Source: Spirochaetae bacterium HGW-Spirochaetae-4 (GTDB taxonomy: Bacteria > Spirochaetota > Spirochaetia > Sphaerochaetales > Sphaerochaetaceae). Taken from it: a stretch of DNA of 52,736 nt. Each line of letters begins with the position of its first letter. The first letter of the stretch is position 1. This document shows, piece after piece, positions 4,096 to 52,620 of the stretch. A model generated the notes under the pieces. The model made no database searches. It saw only the letters and a list, made by a program, of their open reading frames with translations, and was not told the DNA's origin. The translations under genes and the position numbers were made by a program. The stretch lies in NCBI GenBank assembly GCA_002839335.1, contig PGXU01000021.1:1-52736 (forward strand), in the 5' to 3' direction.

Positions 4096-4212
4096 CAGGC
4101 TCATTTTTTGTATTCCAATTGCATCAAGTCAAACTGTTTATGTCCTAAGAGAATCCACACTATTTTACAAGTGCCTGGCACCAATCGGATAGATTTCTCC
4201 ACCCCAGCATGG

Positions 4213-13273: not shown

Positions 13274-14840
13274 TTGGATGCAATGGTCCGACCCGATCGA
13301 TGTGCGCCGGCGTTCGGCACTCGCAATGCGCAACGTATTCGAGATGGCTGATCCGAGGTTCAACCATGTCACCTATATTGGCGCCTCCCTCTCTGAGAAT
13401 CCTCCCCATTTCGTTCATCATCGCCTCGGATGGACCGAAGCATTGCCCTATTCGGTGGTTGGAGCCGTCATTGGACGTAAGATTACCCAAGAAGTTGGCG
13501 ACGAAAAGGTTGTAGCCGGACAGCGGAGCCTGCTTCTCAGTCACTTTACCGGAATGGATGGATTCGTCCATTCGCCCGCTTCTCCATGGAGTGCACCATA
13601 TCCCATGGATATATGGGAACAAGCCCGAACGTTGTATGCTCTCATCTATTGGTTTGGTGAAACTGGTGAGGAACGTCTGCTAGACTATGCCGAAGCCATG
13701 GTGGATGGTCTGTTCAAGCTCTCGGTTCCAAGGGGTAGTGAACGCGTGTTTCCTGCAAATTCCTTCGCACGCTGCTCGATGGGGCCGTATGGGGTGGGCG
13801 CAATCATTGATCCTCTCCTTTGGTATTATCAAATGAGCGGGAACCATAAGGCGCTCATGGTGGGAATTGGTACGGCTGAATTCTTTATGGATCCTGCCAA
13901 TGGATTTTTCGACGAGCAGTGGGGGGCCAAGGGATTCTTCCGTTCTGTTGTCGCCTGCCTCAACGGTTTCTCCAAAGCCGCGGCGGTCACGGGGGATCCA
14001 AGGATTCTTTCGCGGGCAAAGTGTCTGCATGATGCCGCGGTTTCCCGATGCACCGCATACGGAAGTACTCCTTGCGGTGAGCCCGCGTGTAGTGATTTTG
14101 AACTCAATGGCAGCGCACTGTCTTTGGTTCAAGCGGGATATCCCGAGTATTGGGATCAAATTGACCGGTTTATCCGCAACCAGACCGCCAGGTCACAGTT
14201 TATTGATCCAAACGAGTATGACAGTGAGAAAGCCAGCAAGAAACGGGTCAACCTCTACAATATCTACGATGGGTATCCCGATGATCTACAGGTGCTTCCC
14301 TTCGATGATTATCGTGATGTCGTTAATCGTTCGGTCGGTGGTGCCATGTGGTGTTCACCCTCCGGGCATTCCTTTTTTCCTGCATCCCTGATGATTTGCT
14401 GTACTAGTCATGTATTGCGTTCATTCGAGATTGCGTGGGACCATTCGCTCTATGAAACCAACACCGGCTTGGTGTCCGATTTGCAATTCTCTGTCGACAA
14501 TGCGCTTGGCACCATTGTTTCACACGAGCCAAAGGAAGGACGGGCGGTTTTCACATTTGCAAAGGATACGGAGAGTCTCCGCATACGAATCCCGTCGTTC
14601 GCGGACGTCGGGAAAGTTGCCCTTTCAAAAAATGGCGAGTCGGTTCCGACTCGAATCGAACGTGGCTATCTGGTGGCCGATCGGCTATCGAAGGGATGCG
14701 CCTATGATTTCACGTTCCCGCTTGCCGAGCGTGAGTCTGTTGAATGGCAGCAACTGTTCGAGTTTCCCGATTACGATCATCCTGCGGCAACCGGCGAGTA
14801 TCGTGTCCAATGGCGGGGTAACAGTTGCGTTCTTCTTTGA
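13245..14840 (+). CDS. GH127-like (six-hairpin) glycosidase
   Basis: A protein of 531 residues without a signal peptide that resembles the (alpha/alpha)6-barrel GH127/DUF1680 glycosidases, typified by beta-L-arabinofuranosidase. Visible features are helical-hairpin repeats (GFSKAAAVTGDPRILSRAK), a paired cysteine in SLMICCTSHVLRSFE recalling the zinc-binding Cys-Cys of GH127, and a C-terminal beta domain with LRIRIPSF. Another cysteine pair is in GEPACSDFELNG. I chose the ATG at 13245 (GGAGGGCAAGG just upstream), which overlaps the ATPase gene by 29 bp. It is probably the intracellular hydrolase for the sugar imported by this operon. Exact family assignment needs a profile search. Confidence 0.65.
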   Translation: MKEKRERLSDWMQWSDPIDVRRRSALAMRNVFEMADPRFNHVTYIGASLSENPPHFVHHRLGWTEALPYSVVGAVIGRKITQEVGDEKVVAGQRSLLLSHFTGMDGFVHSPASPWSAPYPMDIWEQARTLYALIYWFGETGEERLLDYAEAMVDGLFKLSVPRGSERVFPANSFARCSMGPYGVGAIIDPLLWYYQMSGNHKALMVGIGTAEFFMDPANGFFDEQWGAKGFFRSVVACLNGFSKAAAVTGDPRILSRAKCLHDAAVSRCTAYGSTPCGEPACSDFELNGSALSLVQAGYPEYWDQIDRFIRNQTARSQFIDPNEYDSEKASKKRVNLYNIYDGYPDDLQVLPFDDYRDVVNRSVGGAMWCSPSGHSFFPASLMICCTSHVLRSFEIAWDHSLYETNTGLVSDLQFSVDNALGTIVSHEPKEGRAVFTFAKDTESLRIRIPSFADVGKVALSKNGESVPTRIERGYLVADRLSKGCAYDFTFPLAERESVEWQQLFEFPDYDHPAATGEYRVQWRGNSCVLL

Positions 14841-14842
14841 AC

Positions 14843-14898
14843 GTGCCTGGCACGCGTTTTCGTTTTTGTATACAAAATTCTTCGAACGAACCTGGTAC
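14843..14898. repeat. Composite palindromic intergenic element, most complete copy
   Basis: Just after the stop of the GH127-like gene lie three palindromes at regular spacing: GTGCCTGGCAC (14843-14853), 9 nt, TTTTTGTATACAAAAT (14863-14878), 9 nt, and GAACCTGGTAC (14888-14898). Centre-to-centre distances are 22.5 bp on both sides, about two helical turns. The same parts at the same spacing recur at 40554 and 52471, and in mirror orientation at 52587-52620. The central GTATAC in T/A tracts resembles GntR-type operators, but its position downstream of genes also fits a repeated extragenic or RNA element. Function unknown. Confidence 0.75.
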
Positions 14899-15077
14899 CG
14901 GTATGGTGAGAACGTGAAACCATGTATATGGTTATATGTCGGGAACAACAGTATTATCAAACAAAAGAACTTCTATGTGAAAGCATAAAGCTTGAAAATA
15001 GGGTTCTGGAAGTTATCAAGCTGCTCGAATGGAAAAATTCAGATTCAGCAAGTCTGTTCGTATGGTATACTTGAGAT

Positions 15078-15950
15078 ATGATCGAACAGCAAAGCATCCA
15101 ACGGGACATAGAAAAACTTTTTGACGGTTTGAGCACGGCGGAGCGTAAAGTGGCAAGGGTAATGCTCTCGAATTATCCACTTTCCGGGATGCAGACTATT
15201 GCATCCATTTCAAAGCAGGCCCATGTAAGTGATCCGACCGTACTCAGATTTATTAAAAAACTTGGATATAATAAATATGCCTCCTTTCAAATGCGTCTAA
15301 AGGAAGAATTGGACCAACGGATGCAAGGTCCGTTGAGTATTCGCAACGAGCATGGGAATCCAAATTCAGATTTGACTGTGTATCTTGACGGGTTCGCAAA
15401 ATCGCTCACAGAGAATATCGATGAAACATTCAAGAACCTTCCGGAGGCAGAGGTGGAAGGAATACTGAAAGAGCTGAGTGACAATCGGAAGCACCTGTAT
15501 CTTTTAGGAGGTGAATTTACTGAATCGATCGCACGCTATACCTATTTCCATCTCAGGAAGATGCGACCAGGAGTCCATCTGATCCAAGGACAGGTTCCCT
15601 CAAGAATTGACCATCTACTCGATTTGGGTAAGAAGGATGTGCTAATACTATTTGATGTAAGACGATACCAGCAGGATATCGTGGAATTTGCTGCCCGTGC
15701 CTCGCAACGGGTGAGTTCAATCATACTGATTACCGATCAGTGGTTATCGCCCGCAGCGGAGTATGCTTCGTATGTACTGCCGTGCAAGATCGCATCAAAA
15801 AGCCGTTGGGACAGCTTGGTAGGCGTGACTGGTGTCGTCGAGGCGTTGATGTCCTGTATGGCAGAACTGGAGTGGACAAAAATCAAACCCCGCCTGGAGT
15901 CCCTCGAGAATATTCGGGAAGAGATCAGATCGAGCCAGTATGCGGAATAG
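15078..15950 (+). CDS. RpiR-family regulator (HTH plus SIS)
   Basis: Regulator of 290 residues with an N-terminal RpiR helix-turn-helix (LSTAERKVARVMLSNY, then SDPTVLRFIKKLGY) and a C-terminal SIS domain (KHLYLLGGEFTESIARYTYF, later VLILFDVRRYQQDIV) of the type that senses phosphosugars. It lies alone between the GH127-like gene and the convergent N-formylglutamate amidohydrolase gene, so its targets may be either neighbour. No good ribosome site precedes the ATG. A TATACT hexamer sits only 7 bp upstream (15066-15071), so the transcript could be leaderless, a weak suggestion. The gap 15951-16049 shows no obvious terminator. Confidence 0.92.
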   Translation: MIEQQSIQRDIEKLFDGLSTAERKVARVMLSNYPLSGMQTIASISKQAHVSDPTVLRFIKKLGYNKYASFQMRLKEELDQRMQGPLSIRNEHGNPNSDLTVYLDGFAKSLTENIDETFKNLPEAEVEGILKELSDNRKHLYLLGGEFTESIARYTYFHLRKMRPGVHLIQGQVPSRIDHLLDLGKKDVLILFDVRRYQQDIVEFAARASQRVSSIILITDQWLSPAAEYASYVLPCKIASKSRWDSLVGVTGVVEALMSCMAELEWTKIKPRLESLENIREEIRSSQYAE

Positions 15951-16049
15951 CAGATTCCTATAAGCTTAGAGCCTTGTTATGTATACCACTCTTCCTTTAC
16001 CTCTTCCGCTTCCATTAGAAGACAACTGACAAGTAATAGAGTCTATGGA

Positions 16050-16820
16050 TTATCGTTTGGAATTGATTTTATCAAACTTTTCCAAGATATCGGAAAGCAA
16101 TTCAACAATATACAGTTTGCTTTTCGGGTTCTGGAGAAAATCCTGCCGTATTTCCATGAGTACCGCATCGATAGCATTTTTCTTTCCGTGCGCATACATA
16201 CCATAATCTCCCTCGGGAGTAATCGGGTATGGTTCGTTTTCTCCAATAGGATGTAACTTGCTCTTCTTAAGCTCTTTTATGAGGTATGAGCTGAAAGGTG
16301 AAGGAGTCTCATAGGTTATGCCTATTGGCCACGGACGGAACTTTCCATCAAGTTCTGGAGTGTAGCTGTGAATCGAGAGCAGGACAACGTTACGTTTAAT
16401 GGTAATATGCGTAGCGAGTGCATCGTCGATTGTCTTGTGGTACGGGTTGAATATTTCTTCGATTCGTTGCGCAATTTGTATGTTGGAGAGACTGTTGTTA
16501 CCAGGGATTTGCAGGCCATGAATTGTATCAGGAATCGAACCCTTCCCTTGGGGGGGGCGGTTGCAATCGATAACCAGTCGCGAATATCTTGAAGCGACCA
16601 ACGGGGCATCGAGCCGATCTGATAGAACACGTGCCACATCGAATGCTCCAATATCCCATCCGATATGGGTTGATCTGTCAATAAGAGGTAACCCGAGATT
16701 CTCCAAACGTTCAGGGATTCGTAAGGATGCGTGATCGCAAGTTAGAAATAACGAGGAACTGCCAGATATATGGAACTGTTCATACGCTGGAATTTCGTTG
16801 GTATTGAGTATGTGATCCAT
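16050..16820 (-). CDS. N-formylglutamate amidohydrolase family protein
   Basis: Cytoplasmic zinc-type amidohydrolase of 256 residues in the N-formylglutamate amidohydrolase (HutG/FGase) family. Visible signatures are LFLTCDHASLRIPE near the N-terminus, HIGWDIGAFDVARVLSDRL, the SRLVIDCNR motif, and VVLLSIHSYTP. The family removes N-formyl or related acyl groups from amino acids, classically the last step of histidine breakdown, though many members act on other N-acyl amino acids. No hut genes are nearby. It is divergent from the glutamine-synthetase-like gene (17030) and shares a regulatory gap holding an 18-bp palindrome, suggesting co-control in a gamma-glutamyl or amide compound pathway. 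Confidence 0.88.
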   Translation of the reverse strand: MDHILNTNEIPAYEQFHISGSSSLFLTCDHASLRIPERLENLGLPLIDRSTHIGWDIGAFDVARVLSDRLDAPLVASRYSRLVIDCNRPPQGKGSIPDTIHGLQIPGNNSLSNIQIAQRIEEIFNPYHKTIDDALATHITIKRNVVLLSIHSYTPELDGKFRPWPIGITYETPSPFSSYLIKELKKSKLHPIGENEPYPITPEGDYGMYAHGKKNAIDAVLMEIRQDFLQNPKSKLYIVELLSDILEKFDKINSKR

Positions 16821-38400: not shown

Positions 38401-39386
38401 GCAATCCCAGTTTGAAGACAAACGCCATCCACCTCTCGGCGATGACAGCTTCAGTGTTGTGGGCTTCCGCTTTCCTTGGCGGCAAATACGCCCTGTCCTA
38501 TCTGTACCCGCTGCGATTGGCCGGTATTCGGTTGCTGCTTGCGACTCTCATCGTTCTGATCTACATGCGTAGGAATCCGTTCGAGGGCTTGCGAGGCCAT
38601 TACAAAAGCATCATCAGACTCAGCATATTCCAGACCATTATCGTTTTCAGCGCATTCAATCTCGGTTTAAACCTGGTGCCCGGATCTTTCGGGGCTGTTA
38701 TCATCGGCTCATCACCGGCGGTCTCGTCCTTCGTTGCGGTACTCATGCTTCCCGAGGAACGGCTGAATTTCCGAAAGTTGTCTGGGCTTGCCATAGGATT
38801 GGCTGGTATCGCACTACTGACTGTAGTGGACGAACCATGGAAAGGTCCCGGCTCGCTTCATATACTCGGAGCCTTGTTGCTGATGTCATGCAACTTCTCG
38901 ACGGCCTACGGTAGCATCATCATCAAGAAACATCTGTCGCACGTCCCCTCGTTGTCGGTAAATTTCGTGCAATCGCTGTTCGGTGGAATCGTGGTCCTAT
39001 TGCTTTCATACATCTTCGAGCCGATACATCAAGCTCCATTTTCTTTTCCCCTCGCGGGGAGCGTGCTCTTCTTGGCTTTCATCACAGCAACAGCCGTCTC
39101 ATTGTGGTTGCGTATCGTGGCCGATGCGAATGCTAGGATTTCAGTGATTTCCCTGTGGAAATTCCTCATACCCTCGTTGGGAGCGGTACTCAGTTGGCTA
39201 TTCATGCCGGATGACAAACCTTCGCTTGCCACGTTGTTCGGTATCTTCGCAATTGTCCTCTCCATCGGGTTGACGGTGGCTGCGCCTGCTTCAGTACGCG
39301 CAAAGGCTTCGTCGATACGTGACAATCGCATGCATGAAGAGGATAATCATGATATGCTATCTACAACCGGAGAGCAACAGATATGA
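38397..39386 (+). CDS. EamA/DMT-family transporter
   Basis: Integral membrane protein of 329 residues with ten predicted membrane segments in two EamA repeats. Repeat 1 begins ASVLWASAFLGGKYALSYLY and includes PLRLAGIRLLLATLIVL; repeat 2 begins around LLLMSCNFSTAYGSIIIKK. Members export or import amino acids and metabolites. It starts in the stop codon of the UPF0597 gene and itself overlaps the ROK gene by 4 bp. It probably exports an end product of the pathway, for example an amino acid. Confidence 0.9.
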   Translation: MSNPSLKTNAIHLSAMTASVLWASAFLGGKYALSYLYPLRLAGIRLLLATLIVLIYMRRNPFEGLRGHYKSIIRLSIFQTIIVFSAFNLGLNLVPGSFGAVIIGSSPAVSSFVAVLMLPEERLNFRKLSGLAIGLAGIALLTVVDEPWKGPGSLHILGALLLMSCNFSTAYGSIIIKKHLSHVPSLSVNFVQSLFGGIVVLLLSYIFEPIHQAPFSFPLAGSVLFLAFITATAVSLWLRIVADANARISVISLWKFLIPSLGAVLSWLFMPDDKPSLATLFGIFAIVLSIGLTVAAPASVRAKASSIRDNRMHEEDNHDMLSTTGEQQI

Positions 39387-40591
39387 AGAGTGTGTCGAAT
39401 AATCTTGATGTGAAGATTGCCAATGCGGAAAAGATCTATACCATGCTGCGGGGGAACGGGGGGATGACGAAGTCGCAACTGGTCACCCAAGTGGGGTTGA
39501 GTTTCGCATCGGTATCGAATATCTGCACATCGCTGGCCGATGCCGGTCTGGTCATGGTCACCGAGAGTGCCAGGTCGACAGGTGGAAGAAAAGCCGCGAG
39601 GGTCGCCTTTGTCAGCGACAACCGCTACACTTTGGTAATCGATCTGCACCATACGCAGCATGTGTATCTCGGCATGGTTGATCTGGAGAACACGATCCGC
39701 AACCACACCCGTTTCGAAGTTGCTTCCGACGATTCGCTGGAAACAATCCTCACCCATATCCAGCAAGCCTACATGGACTTGGACAGTCAGGGCGATTATC
39801 CCCTGCTGGGTGTTTGTGTCGGTATCTCAGCTGTTTACGACCCGCATGCCGGAGTGGTCCTCCGGAGCTCGAATCCGGTTTTTGAAGGGGTTCATCTTCA
39901 TCGGCATATCGCCGAATTGTTTCCTGATCATATGGTGATTGTAGACAACGATGCGAATCTGGCCGGATTGTCCCAAATGATGCAGTCGCAGCGGAACCAA
40001 AAGAATCTGCTGTTCATCTTCCTTACCCAGGGAGTCGGACTCGGGATCATGATCAACGGGATGTTGTATCGTGGTACGAACGGGTATGCGGGCGAGTTGG
40101 GACATATCAAGGTATCAGAGGTCAATACACGGTGCAAGTGTGGCGGGGTGGGCTGTCTGCGGACCGTGGCTACACTTGAGTCGATCGCGCATGATCTCGG
40201 AGAATTCGATCAACTGCACGCCAAATCGACTTCGACCGAATATGCCGCCGTCCTTGCCCGGCGCTACAAGCTCCAGGAGACTATTGTCGTGGATCGTGTC
40301 GACCTCTGCGCCCGCAAGCTTGGTGAGGTCGTGGCGGAGTTGTTCGATCTATTCAATCCACAAGAGATTGTGTTCGGGGGGAATCTGGGCGATCTGTTCC
40401 CATTGGTTCGCAACACGTTGCGCCAGCAGGCGATGGAGCTCTCGAACCTTGCCCGTGCGGTTGACCTGCCGATCCGCTATATAACACGTCCGACGTATGA
40501 GTTGGTCCTTTCGGGAGGAGGGGAGCGGATGTTCCATTGGTGGATGCAACATGGTGCCTGGTACCAACTTGGAGATTTGAATACAAAATAA
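39383..40591 (+). CDS. ROK-family transcriptional regulator
   Basis: NagC/XylR-type regulator of 402 residues. The N-terminal helix-turn-helix reads MTKSQLVTQVGLSFASVSNI; the C-terminal ROK sugar-sensing domain contains DNDANLAGLSQM, GLGIMINGMLYRG, GYAGELGHIKV and the zinc motif CKCGGVGCLRT. GGAGAG lies 7 nt upstream of the ATG, which overlaps the transporter stop by 4 bp. It is the last gene of the 29979 operon and probably its repressor. Its last codons and stop lie inside a copy of the composite palindromic repeat (40554-40589), so the C-terminal WYQLGDLNTK is encoded by the repeat. Confidence 0.93.
   Translation: MKSVSNNLDVKIANAEKIYTMLRGNGGMTKSQLVTQVGLSFASVSNICTSLADAGLVMVTESARSTGGRKAARVAFVSDNRYTLVIDLHHTQHVYLGMVDLENTIRNHTRFEVASDDSLETILTHIQQAYMDLDSQGDYPLLGVCVGISAVYDPHAGVVLRSSNPVFEGVHLHRHIAELFPDHMVIVDNDANLAGLSQMMQSQRNQKNLLFIFLTQGVGLGIMINGMLYRGTNGYAGELGHIKVSEVNTRCKCGGVGCLRTVATLESIAHDLGEFDQLHAKSTSTEYAAVLARRYKLQETIVVDRVDLCARKLGEVVAELFDLFNPQEIVFGGNLGDLFPLVRNTLRQQAMELSNLARAVDLPIRYITRPTYELVLSGGGERMFHWWMQHGAWYQLGDLNTK
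40554..40589. repeat. Composite palindromic element, copy within ROK 3' end
   Basis: GTGCCTGGTAC (40554-40564), 9 nt, then a GTATAC-type core with one change (TTTGAATACAAAAT, 40576-40589). The centre spacing of 22.5 bp equals that of the copies at 14843 and 52471. The mirrored outer palindrome expected at 40599-40609 is badly decayed (GTCACAGGGTT). The element overlaps the last codons of the ROK gene. Confidence 0.65.
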
Positions 40592-44729: not shown

Positions 44730-45791
44730 ATGAAGAGAAGCATGTTCTTGTTCGTTGGTGTGTTGTTGGTTGTCGGCACACTCCTGTTCGCAGGTGGGGC
44801 CAAGGAAACATCCACCACATCCTCCGATGTGAAGATCGGAATGATCCTGGGGGTCGGAGGTCTCGGAGACCTTTCGTACAACGACCTTGTCTATGCGGGG
44901 CTCGATAGGGCGCAGAAGGAACTGGGAATCGATTTCGACTATGTCGAACCCCAATCCATAGCCGATTTCGAGACATTCCTCCAGCAGATGGCATCCACAA
45001 GAATGTACGATGTGATCATCTCGGTGGGATATGACCAGGTTGAGCCGTTGAAGAAAGTCGCCCCACAATTTCCTAACCAGAAGTTCGCCATCATCGATGA
45101 GAATGTCGCGCTGCCCAATGTCGCCAGCTTCGTATCCAAGGAGGAGGAGGGCTCGTTCCTCGTCGGAGCCTTGGCGGGTATGGTGAAGAAGACCGACCTG
45201 GTGAAGGCCAACAACACCATCGGATTCATCTCGGCACTCGATATTCCCCTCCTTGACCGTTTCTATGCAGGGTACGAGGCCGGTGCCAGGTATGTGAACC
45301 CGGATATCAAGGTTATCGCGAACTATGTGGGAGGAAACGCTCCGTTCAGCGATATCACCACCGCCAAGGAGATCGCGTTGAAGCAGTTCTCCCAGGGTGC
45401 CGATATCATCTACCATGCAGCCGGAGGCTCGGGTCTCGGTCTGTTCCAAGCCGCCAAGGAGAAGGGGTTCTACGCCATCGGTGTCAATTCCAACCAGAAT
45501 GTGATAGATCCCGACCACATTGTCGCGAGTATGCTCAAGCGTGTCGACAATGCAGCCTACGTTATCGCGGAGAGCCTGGTGAACGGCAATCTGGCCACCG
45601 GTGGTCTTTCCGTTCTCGGTTTGGCCAGTGACGGTATCGGATACACGGTTGCCGAAAGCAATGTGGCTGTCGGTCCCGAAATACTGGCAGTGGTCGAGAA
45701 AATCAAGGAAGCGATCGTCTCGGGTGAACTTGTCGTTCCCGACGCCCATAAGGATGTGGCATCCTTCCTGGCATCCAACTCCTTCCGATAG
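44730..45791 (+). CDS. BMP/PnrA-family nucleoside-binding protein
   Basis: Substrate-binding protein of 353 residues in the Bmp/PnrA/TmpC family, whose studied members bind purine nucleosides in spirochaetes. The signal ends LLFAGGAKETSTTSS. Family motifs are GMILGVGGLGDLSYNDLVYA, PNQKFAIIDENVALPNVASF, the segment EEEGSFLVGALAGMVKKT, and YHAAGGSGLGLFQAAKE. It is followed by an ATPase, two permeases, a deaminase and a phosphorylase, a complete nucleoside uptake and breakdown pathway. A stem-loop follows the gene (45819-45854). Confidence 0.94.
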   Translation: MKRSMFLFVGVLLVVGTLLFAGGAKETSTTSSDVKIGMILGVGGLGDLSYNDLVYAGLDRAQKELGIDFDYVEPQSIADFETFLQQMASTRMYDVIISVGYDQVEPLKKVAPQFPNQKFAIIDENVALPNVASFVSKEEEGSFLVGALAGMVKKTDLVKANNTIGFISALDIPLLDRFYAGYEAGARYVNPDIKVIANYVGGNAPFSDITTAKEIALKQFSQGADIIYHAAGGSGLGLFQAAKEKGFYAIGVNSNQNVIDPDHIVASMLKRVDNAAYVIAESLVNGNLATGGLSVLGLASDGIGYTVAESNVAVGPEILAVVEKIKEAIVSGELVVPDAHKDVASFLASNSFR

Positions 45792-52470: not shown

Positions 52471-52519
52471 GTACCAGGTACCGATTATGGTTTTTGTATA
52501 CAAAATCGATGAATCGTAC
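52471..52519. repeat. Composite palindromic element, copy 3
   Basis: GTACCAGGTAC (52471-52481), 9 nt, TTTTTGTATACAAAAT (52491-52506), 9 nt, then a half-site GTAC (52516-52519) where the mirrored outer palindrome is expected. Spacing is identical to the copy at 14843. Together with the mirror copy at 52587-52620 it forms an inverted pair around about 80 bp. Confidence 0.7.
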
Positions 52520-52586
52520 AAACAATCTCATGCGGGTATGCTCTAAGGGGTGTTCATGACGTGAAAAGAGATACTACGTCCATGGA

Positions 52587-52620
52587 TTTGTATACAAAAA
52601 CAAACTTTCGTACCAGGTAC
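52587..52620. repeat. Composite palindromic element, copy 4 in mirror orientation
   Basis: TTTGTATACAAAAA (52587-52600), 9 nt, GTACCAGGTAC (52610-52620): the same parts and spacing as copy 3 but in the opposite order. The remainder, 52621-52736, shows no gene. It contains the palindrome GGATTCGAATCC near 52710, which resembles a tRNA T-loop only superficially. Confidence 0.7.

Follow-up and report, generated by a model that had tools for sequence, protein, structure and literature searches.

What is the palindromic repeat at positions 14843-14898 of this DNA, and what accounts for its exact spacing? The window, i.e., the whole stretch analysed, comprises 52,736 nucleotides of Spirochaetae bacterium HGW-Spirochaetae-4. 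A preliminary description had made out an 11-bp palindrome, GTRCCWGGYAC (hereafter P), a 9-nt spacer and a central palindrome, the core, followed in complete copies by a second spacer and a second P. Read directly, the sequence is GTGCCTGGCAC-N9-TTTTTGTATACAAAAT-N9-GAACCTGGTAC, exactly as described. The features of the window are as follows:

14843..14898, + strand: complete 56-bp element, i.e., P, 9 nt, palindromic core, 9 nt, P (sequence and pattern search)
14843..14853, no strand: left outer palindrome P, GTGCCTGGCAC (sequence)
14863..14878, no strand: core, TTTTTGTATACAAAAT (sequence)
14888..14898, no strand: right outer palindrome P, GAACCTGGTAC, which differs from the consensus at one position (sequence)
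40554..40588, + strand: truncated half element, i.e., P, 9 nt, ATTTGAATACAAAA (pattern search and comparison with the congener G001)
52471..52620, + strand: 150-bp long form, with inverted P-9-core ends flanking a unique middle (pattern search and parsing)
52471..52506, + strand: left end of the long form, P, N9, core (pattern search)
52585..52620, - strand: right end of the long form, P, N9, core, inverted (pattern search)
4171..4181, no strand: isolated P palindrome, GTGCCTGGCAC (sequence search)

The half-pattern P-N9-core matched the window five times at up to three mismatches, and never in 100 shuffles. A one-mismatch match at 45283, inside a long open reading frame, is probably due to chance. 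The four copies counted previously are three elements, one of 56 bp, one of 150 bp and one truncated half, because the sequences at 52471-52506 and 52585-52620 are the inverted ends of a single 150-bp element. The isolated palindrome reported at 4171-4181 is indeed present and is possibly a singlet remnant. In the truncated half the core has changed to ATTTGAATACAAAA, and this half supplies the final codons of a ROK-family gene (39383-40591). A search of the window against Rfam gave no match.

The enrichment extends to the whole genome. In the 3.6 Mb of the window's own genome (G000) we found 47 half-pattern matches per strand and none with the reversed-pattern control, which establishes a real, modular family with conserved spacing. 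Neither outcome named beforehand as refuting, a lack of enrichment over the genome or a lack of conservation in relatives, was thus observed. Parsing of the fetched contigs plus one 3-kb locus gave 57 elements (31 of 56 bp, eight of 129 bp, two of 150 bp, and 16 halves). The family is also conserved in a congener, G001 (PGXW01), with 50 elements in about 316 kb. This is the only one of 149 relatives searched beside G000 to have the element: a third congener, 99% complete, had neither elements nor a Y1 gene, and the other 147 sampled relatives had no elements. An exact-pattern scan of GTDB r220, which may omit records near the window's own genome, returned solely PGXW01, Spirochaetae bacterium HGW-Spirochaetae-2. 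The many copies are dispersed over each genome and at the same time strongly clustered, e.g., contig C38 of G000 has 14 for 0.95 expected. Regional clusters were seen on contigs C38, C82, and C103 of G000, and its contig with dnaA was absent from the matches of the pattern search. When positions 13900-16100 of the window were compared with G001, they matched only elements, and no orthologous locus was found.

Each element is made of two inverted REP-like ends, P with a T-rich tail, joined at a common 14-bp palindrome. The core is TTTTGTATACAAAA, with TTTTGCATACAAAA as its main variant. Long forms have the same ends as the 56-bp form and a unique middle. Positions 1, 4, 5, 7, and 8 of P are nearly fixed. 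The 9-nt spacers had been described as unrelated in sequence; we find instead a loose pattern, roughly S-R-W-W-T-T-T-N-N reading inwards, with T at the sixth position in 107 of 120. The two P sites of a 56-bp element in G000 usually share one central W letter on one strand (25 of 31), so that this form has a polarity. Two half elements near contig ends (L035:14529-14672 and L043:1-144) continue into similar sequence (GGGG/GGGC-TC..CCGCA...GTGGTCAAG), perhaps a still longer form at which the assembly was interrupted.

The inverted doublets fold as single-stranded DNA, the predicted structure being one long hairpin in which the core forms a hairpin of its own. Ten of the 12 strands tested were far below their shuffles (z -3.7 to -6.9); the 56-bp elements outside the window gave z of about -3.8 to -4.5, the long forms -3.7 to -6.9. 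The copy at 14843-14898 is weak in this respect: with z of -1.1 and -0.7 it did not surpass its shuffles. Covariation of the arms, proposed earlier as a check, was tabulated for G001: positions 3 and 9 of P varied almost independently (A-T 25, G-C 19, A-C 19, G-T 11), and covariation thus neither proves nor excludes the hairpin.

With gene calls from a simple script, the elements avoid genes and crowd behind stop codons. Of the 40 complete elements of G000 just one lay wholly within a called gene, where random placement would put 79.5%, and 36 of the 51 distances to stop codons nearby did not exceed 16 bp. Oriented by the centre of P, the elements showed a bias of 21 to 5 with respect to the gene upstream, which is only suggestive since orthologues are counted twice. 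The exception to the extragenic location is the element at C38:36131-36186 of G000 (L032:16131-16186), which is enclosed by a gene that matches NrdG2 at 174 bits (cut-off 131). In this NrdG2-type radical SAM gene the element stands in frame directly after CHNR(T/S)M.

The two carrier genomes also share a gene for a Y1 transposase of the RAYT kind. The orthologous genes, on C124 of G000 and C86 of G001, are 88% identical and pass the PF01797 cut-off; with the model for REP tyrosine transposases (NF047646) they score 67.3 and 73.8 bits (E-values of 1e-18 to 1e-20, cut-off 80). Copies of the element flank the gene. Both genomes have one 57 bp ahead of the ATG, and in G000 a second starts directly at the stop codon, so that the gene sits between terminal inverted arms of 40 nt with 80% complementarity; in G001 the 5' copy alone adjoins it. 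The neighbours differ between the genomes, a Fic-family gene in G001 and in G000 a gene that we take from its translation to be galactokinase-like. The G000 gene has a premature TAG (L043:904-906), after which the frame is open to the original end. The protein, 271 aa long in G001, has the HUH motif as HYH and the Y---NP motif as YIAWNP, 59 residues apart, in agreement with 16 homologues, and the Y1 fold: the best match of its AlphaFold2 model (mean pLDDT 82) among all solved structures was 4ER8, the structure of a RAYT with its REP hairpin bound. Its relatives gave a weak C-terminal HTH match. The flanks of its closest homologues (33-36% identity, same family) held no comparable repeats.

The outer palindrome occurs beside RAYTs in distant spirochaetes too. 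Paired GTGCCWGGCAC was present in three of the 393 sampled genomes of the phylum. In G308 one RAYT has two exact copies of P on each side, and two other Y1 loci are without P. G482 has only 58 exact P in its 5.3 Mb, yet at five of its nine RAYT loci one lies no more than about 300 bp away; two more Y1 loci are accompanied by one-mismatch copies. G238 has 48 P and the Y1 search gave no match there, so that P can exist without a detected RAYT.

Comparison of G000 with G001 shows how the elements change. Orthologous 56-bp elements diverged by 4% in the core, 8.7% in the flanks, 11% in P, and 22% in the spacers, figures that are somewhat inflated by a few aligned pairs that are cross-matches of neighbouring copies. 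The divergence of P was concentrated at positions 3 and 9, where a genome-wide shift is apparent: these positions are A/T in 69 of 82 ends in G000 versus 25 of 74 in G001. The higher divergence of the spacers suggests turnover by exchange between copies. Individual sites were rearranged. The in-frame element of G000 (L032:16131) matches G001 (L081:11161) best as its reverse complement; it thus appears to have been inverted in place, and the NrdG2 reading frame is open in both genomes despite this inversion. One site holds 56 bp in G000 (L039:3619) and 129 bp in G001 (L083:16412), and at one orthologous site a 45-bp unit was gained or lost. At the truncated half of the window (40554) the 97% identity to G001 stops about 4 bp past the core, and G001 has the complete element there, right half included; the half element is a rearrangement scar. 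The single filled/empty pair had poorly aligned junctions and no target-site duplication, and the comparison turned up no empty site that was clean and showed target features. The sequence beside the elements hints at a weak target preference, A at -2 and not T at -1. At the majority of orthologous sites both genomes carry an element, so that the comparison gives no demonstration of recent hopping. Genome G002 proved too diverged for a DNA search for empty sites.

A repeat with this structure, copy number, extragenic position, linkage of element or P to RAYTs and record of rearrangement at orthologous sites, all of them observed, is in our judgement very probably a non-autonomous miniature mobile element of the REPIN or RAYT-linked terminal-inverted-repeat kind, mobilised by the RAYT on single-strand hairpins. 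It would be an unusual relative of known repeats. REPINs share with it two inverted palindromic ends and a spacer whose length is fixed while its sequence varies, and likewise are extragenic, occur in many copies and tandem clusters with a RAYT alongside, and fold into hairpins or clovers (Bertels and Rainey 2011, PMC3116915). Its fixed length fits them as well, since length and hairpin ability matter more in REPINs than spacer sequence (PMC3116915). In contrast to REPINs (PMC3116915), it is shorter (56 bp) and strongly clustered, its ends share the central palindrome, and the GT[AG]G guide tetranucleotide is absent from the hairpin foot, where the ends are GTAC/GTGC. For want of this guide we do not file the element as a canonical GTAG-REP. 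In the Escherichia coli enzyme W94 and Q95 are tied to the region reading GTAG guides (PMC6006769). The stretch that by eye would be its equivalent reads TGTIYDGRY here, in agreement with the missing GTAG.

The transposase itself resembles those of TIRYTs or TIRtrons (PMC3733652) and of TnpA-Y1 subclass 2.1 (PMC6006769), to which we would assign it by this resemblance. They too are longer Y1 proteins with a C-terminal extension, encoded between terminal inverted repeats as the gene is in G000, and double-palindromic, repeated TIR families have been described among them (PMC3733652, PMC6006769). Subclass 2.1 was reported without adjacent REP-like sequences (PMC6006769), whereas there are tens of copies here, and the GGGGWSAS motif of the majority of TIRYTs or TIRtrons is absent from our repeats. 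Like Rickettsia palindromic elements (PMC3733652), the element is tolerated in frame in a protein gene, in this case NrdG2; unlike them it is mostly extragenic, not CGTC-tagged and RAYT-linked. The inverted arms had also prompted an integron attC reading, which was considered and dropped without a dedicated test. A literature search for these palindromes returned papers that, judged by title, were all unrelated. The statement that no described repeat family has this architecture appears to hold for the palindromes themselves, and the family is apparently undescribed; it does not hold for the kind, as REPINs and RAYT-linked TIRs are described.

Could the element instead be a binding site? One or two dimeric proteins, an operator protein or a nucleoid protein, might read the duplex palindromes at a fixed helical phase, possibly marking a chromosomal domain in view of the strong clustering (14 copies on C38). 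The exact spacing, the slower divergence of the core than of the flanks and the lack of elements on the dnaA contig in the pattern search speak for such a site, and TTGTATACAA resembles GntR-type operators. We nevertheless regard it as very unlikely: the nearly complete congener and the 147 other relatives lack the element, copies stand behind stop codons and not upstream of starts, distant lineages have P by itself next to RAYTs, and copies have been inverted, replaced, and tandemly gained and lost. The earlier suggestions of two sites read on one face of the duplex, or of a folded RNA, are less well supported by our results than the RAYT-linked single-strand hairpin doublet.

The placement 0-16 bp behind stop codons suits another reading, that of a bidirectional transcription terminator or mRNA-3'-end element, non-mobile and kept by host selection. 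P with its T-rich tail was called terminator-like at 14842-14854, and the orientation bias of 21 to 5 points the same way. As a full account it is highly improbable, for it leaves the RAYT linkage, the absence from the congener, the long forms and the in-frame NrdG2 element unexplained. Terminator and mobile-element roles are compatible, however. Least credible of all is a MITE dependent on an unlinked DDE transposase. As in such elements, a variable middle is bounded by terminal inverted repeats of about 35 bp, but the sole filled/empty pair, whose junctions align poorly, has no target-site duplication, and the gene that recurs beside the element, and beside P elsewhere, encodes a Y1 enzyme.

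Under the preferred reading, a RAYT-mobilised hairpin element, the single-stranded element would fold as one long hairpin or a three-hairpin clover, probably in the single-stranded DNA of the lagging strand. The RAYT of the same genome, an HUH/Y1 single-strand nuclease, would recognise the P hairpin and cut and rejoin the strand there, thereby moving, replacing, inverting or recombining elements, and the family would have spread by transposition. The 56-bp form may arise from the long forms by slippage between their two cores. As the core is self-palindromic, the two cores are also direct repeats, and slippage would yield exactly 56 bp; the core-to-core distances match the size differences exactly (129-56=73 and 150-56=94). 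Copies just behind stop codons may have acquired a secondary role as terminators or mRNA ends.

RAYTs are widespread, yet their action on repeats is little understood, and what is known comes largely from GTAG-type REPs. In the present genomes a repeat family accompanies a RAYT that resembles a type reported without REPs, and the outer palindrome of this family recurs beside divergent RAYTs of the phylum. We put forward, tentatively and as less probable than its alternatives, that several divergent spirochaete RAYTs use GTRCCWGGYAC as their substrate hairpin, which would make it a REP superfamily beyond the GTAG class, and that in this genus it forms a composite element edited in place by the transposase. 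Copies would be inverted, swapped, and resized while their sites stay fixed, and all copies within a genome would change in concert. Two congeners with about 91% identical flanks keep orthologous copies in such altered states (inverted, swapped, resized), which makes in-place editing versus transposition a testable matter, with close-strain sequencing and one purified protein.
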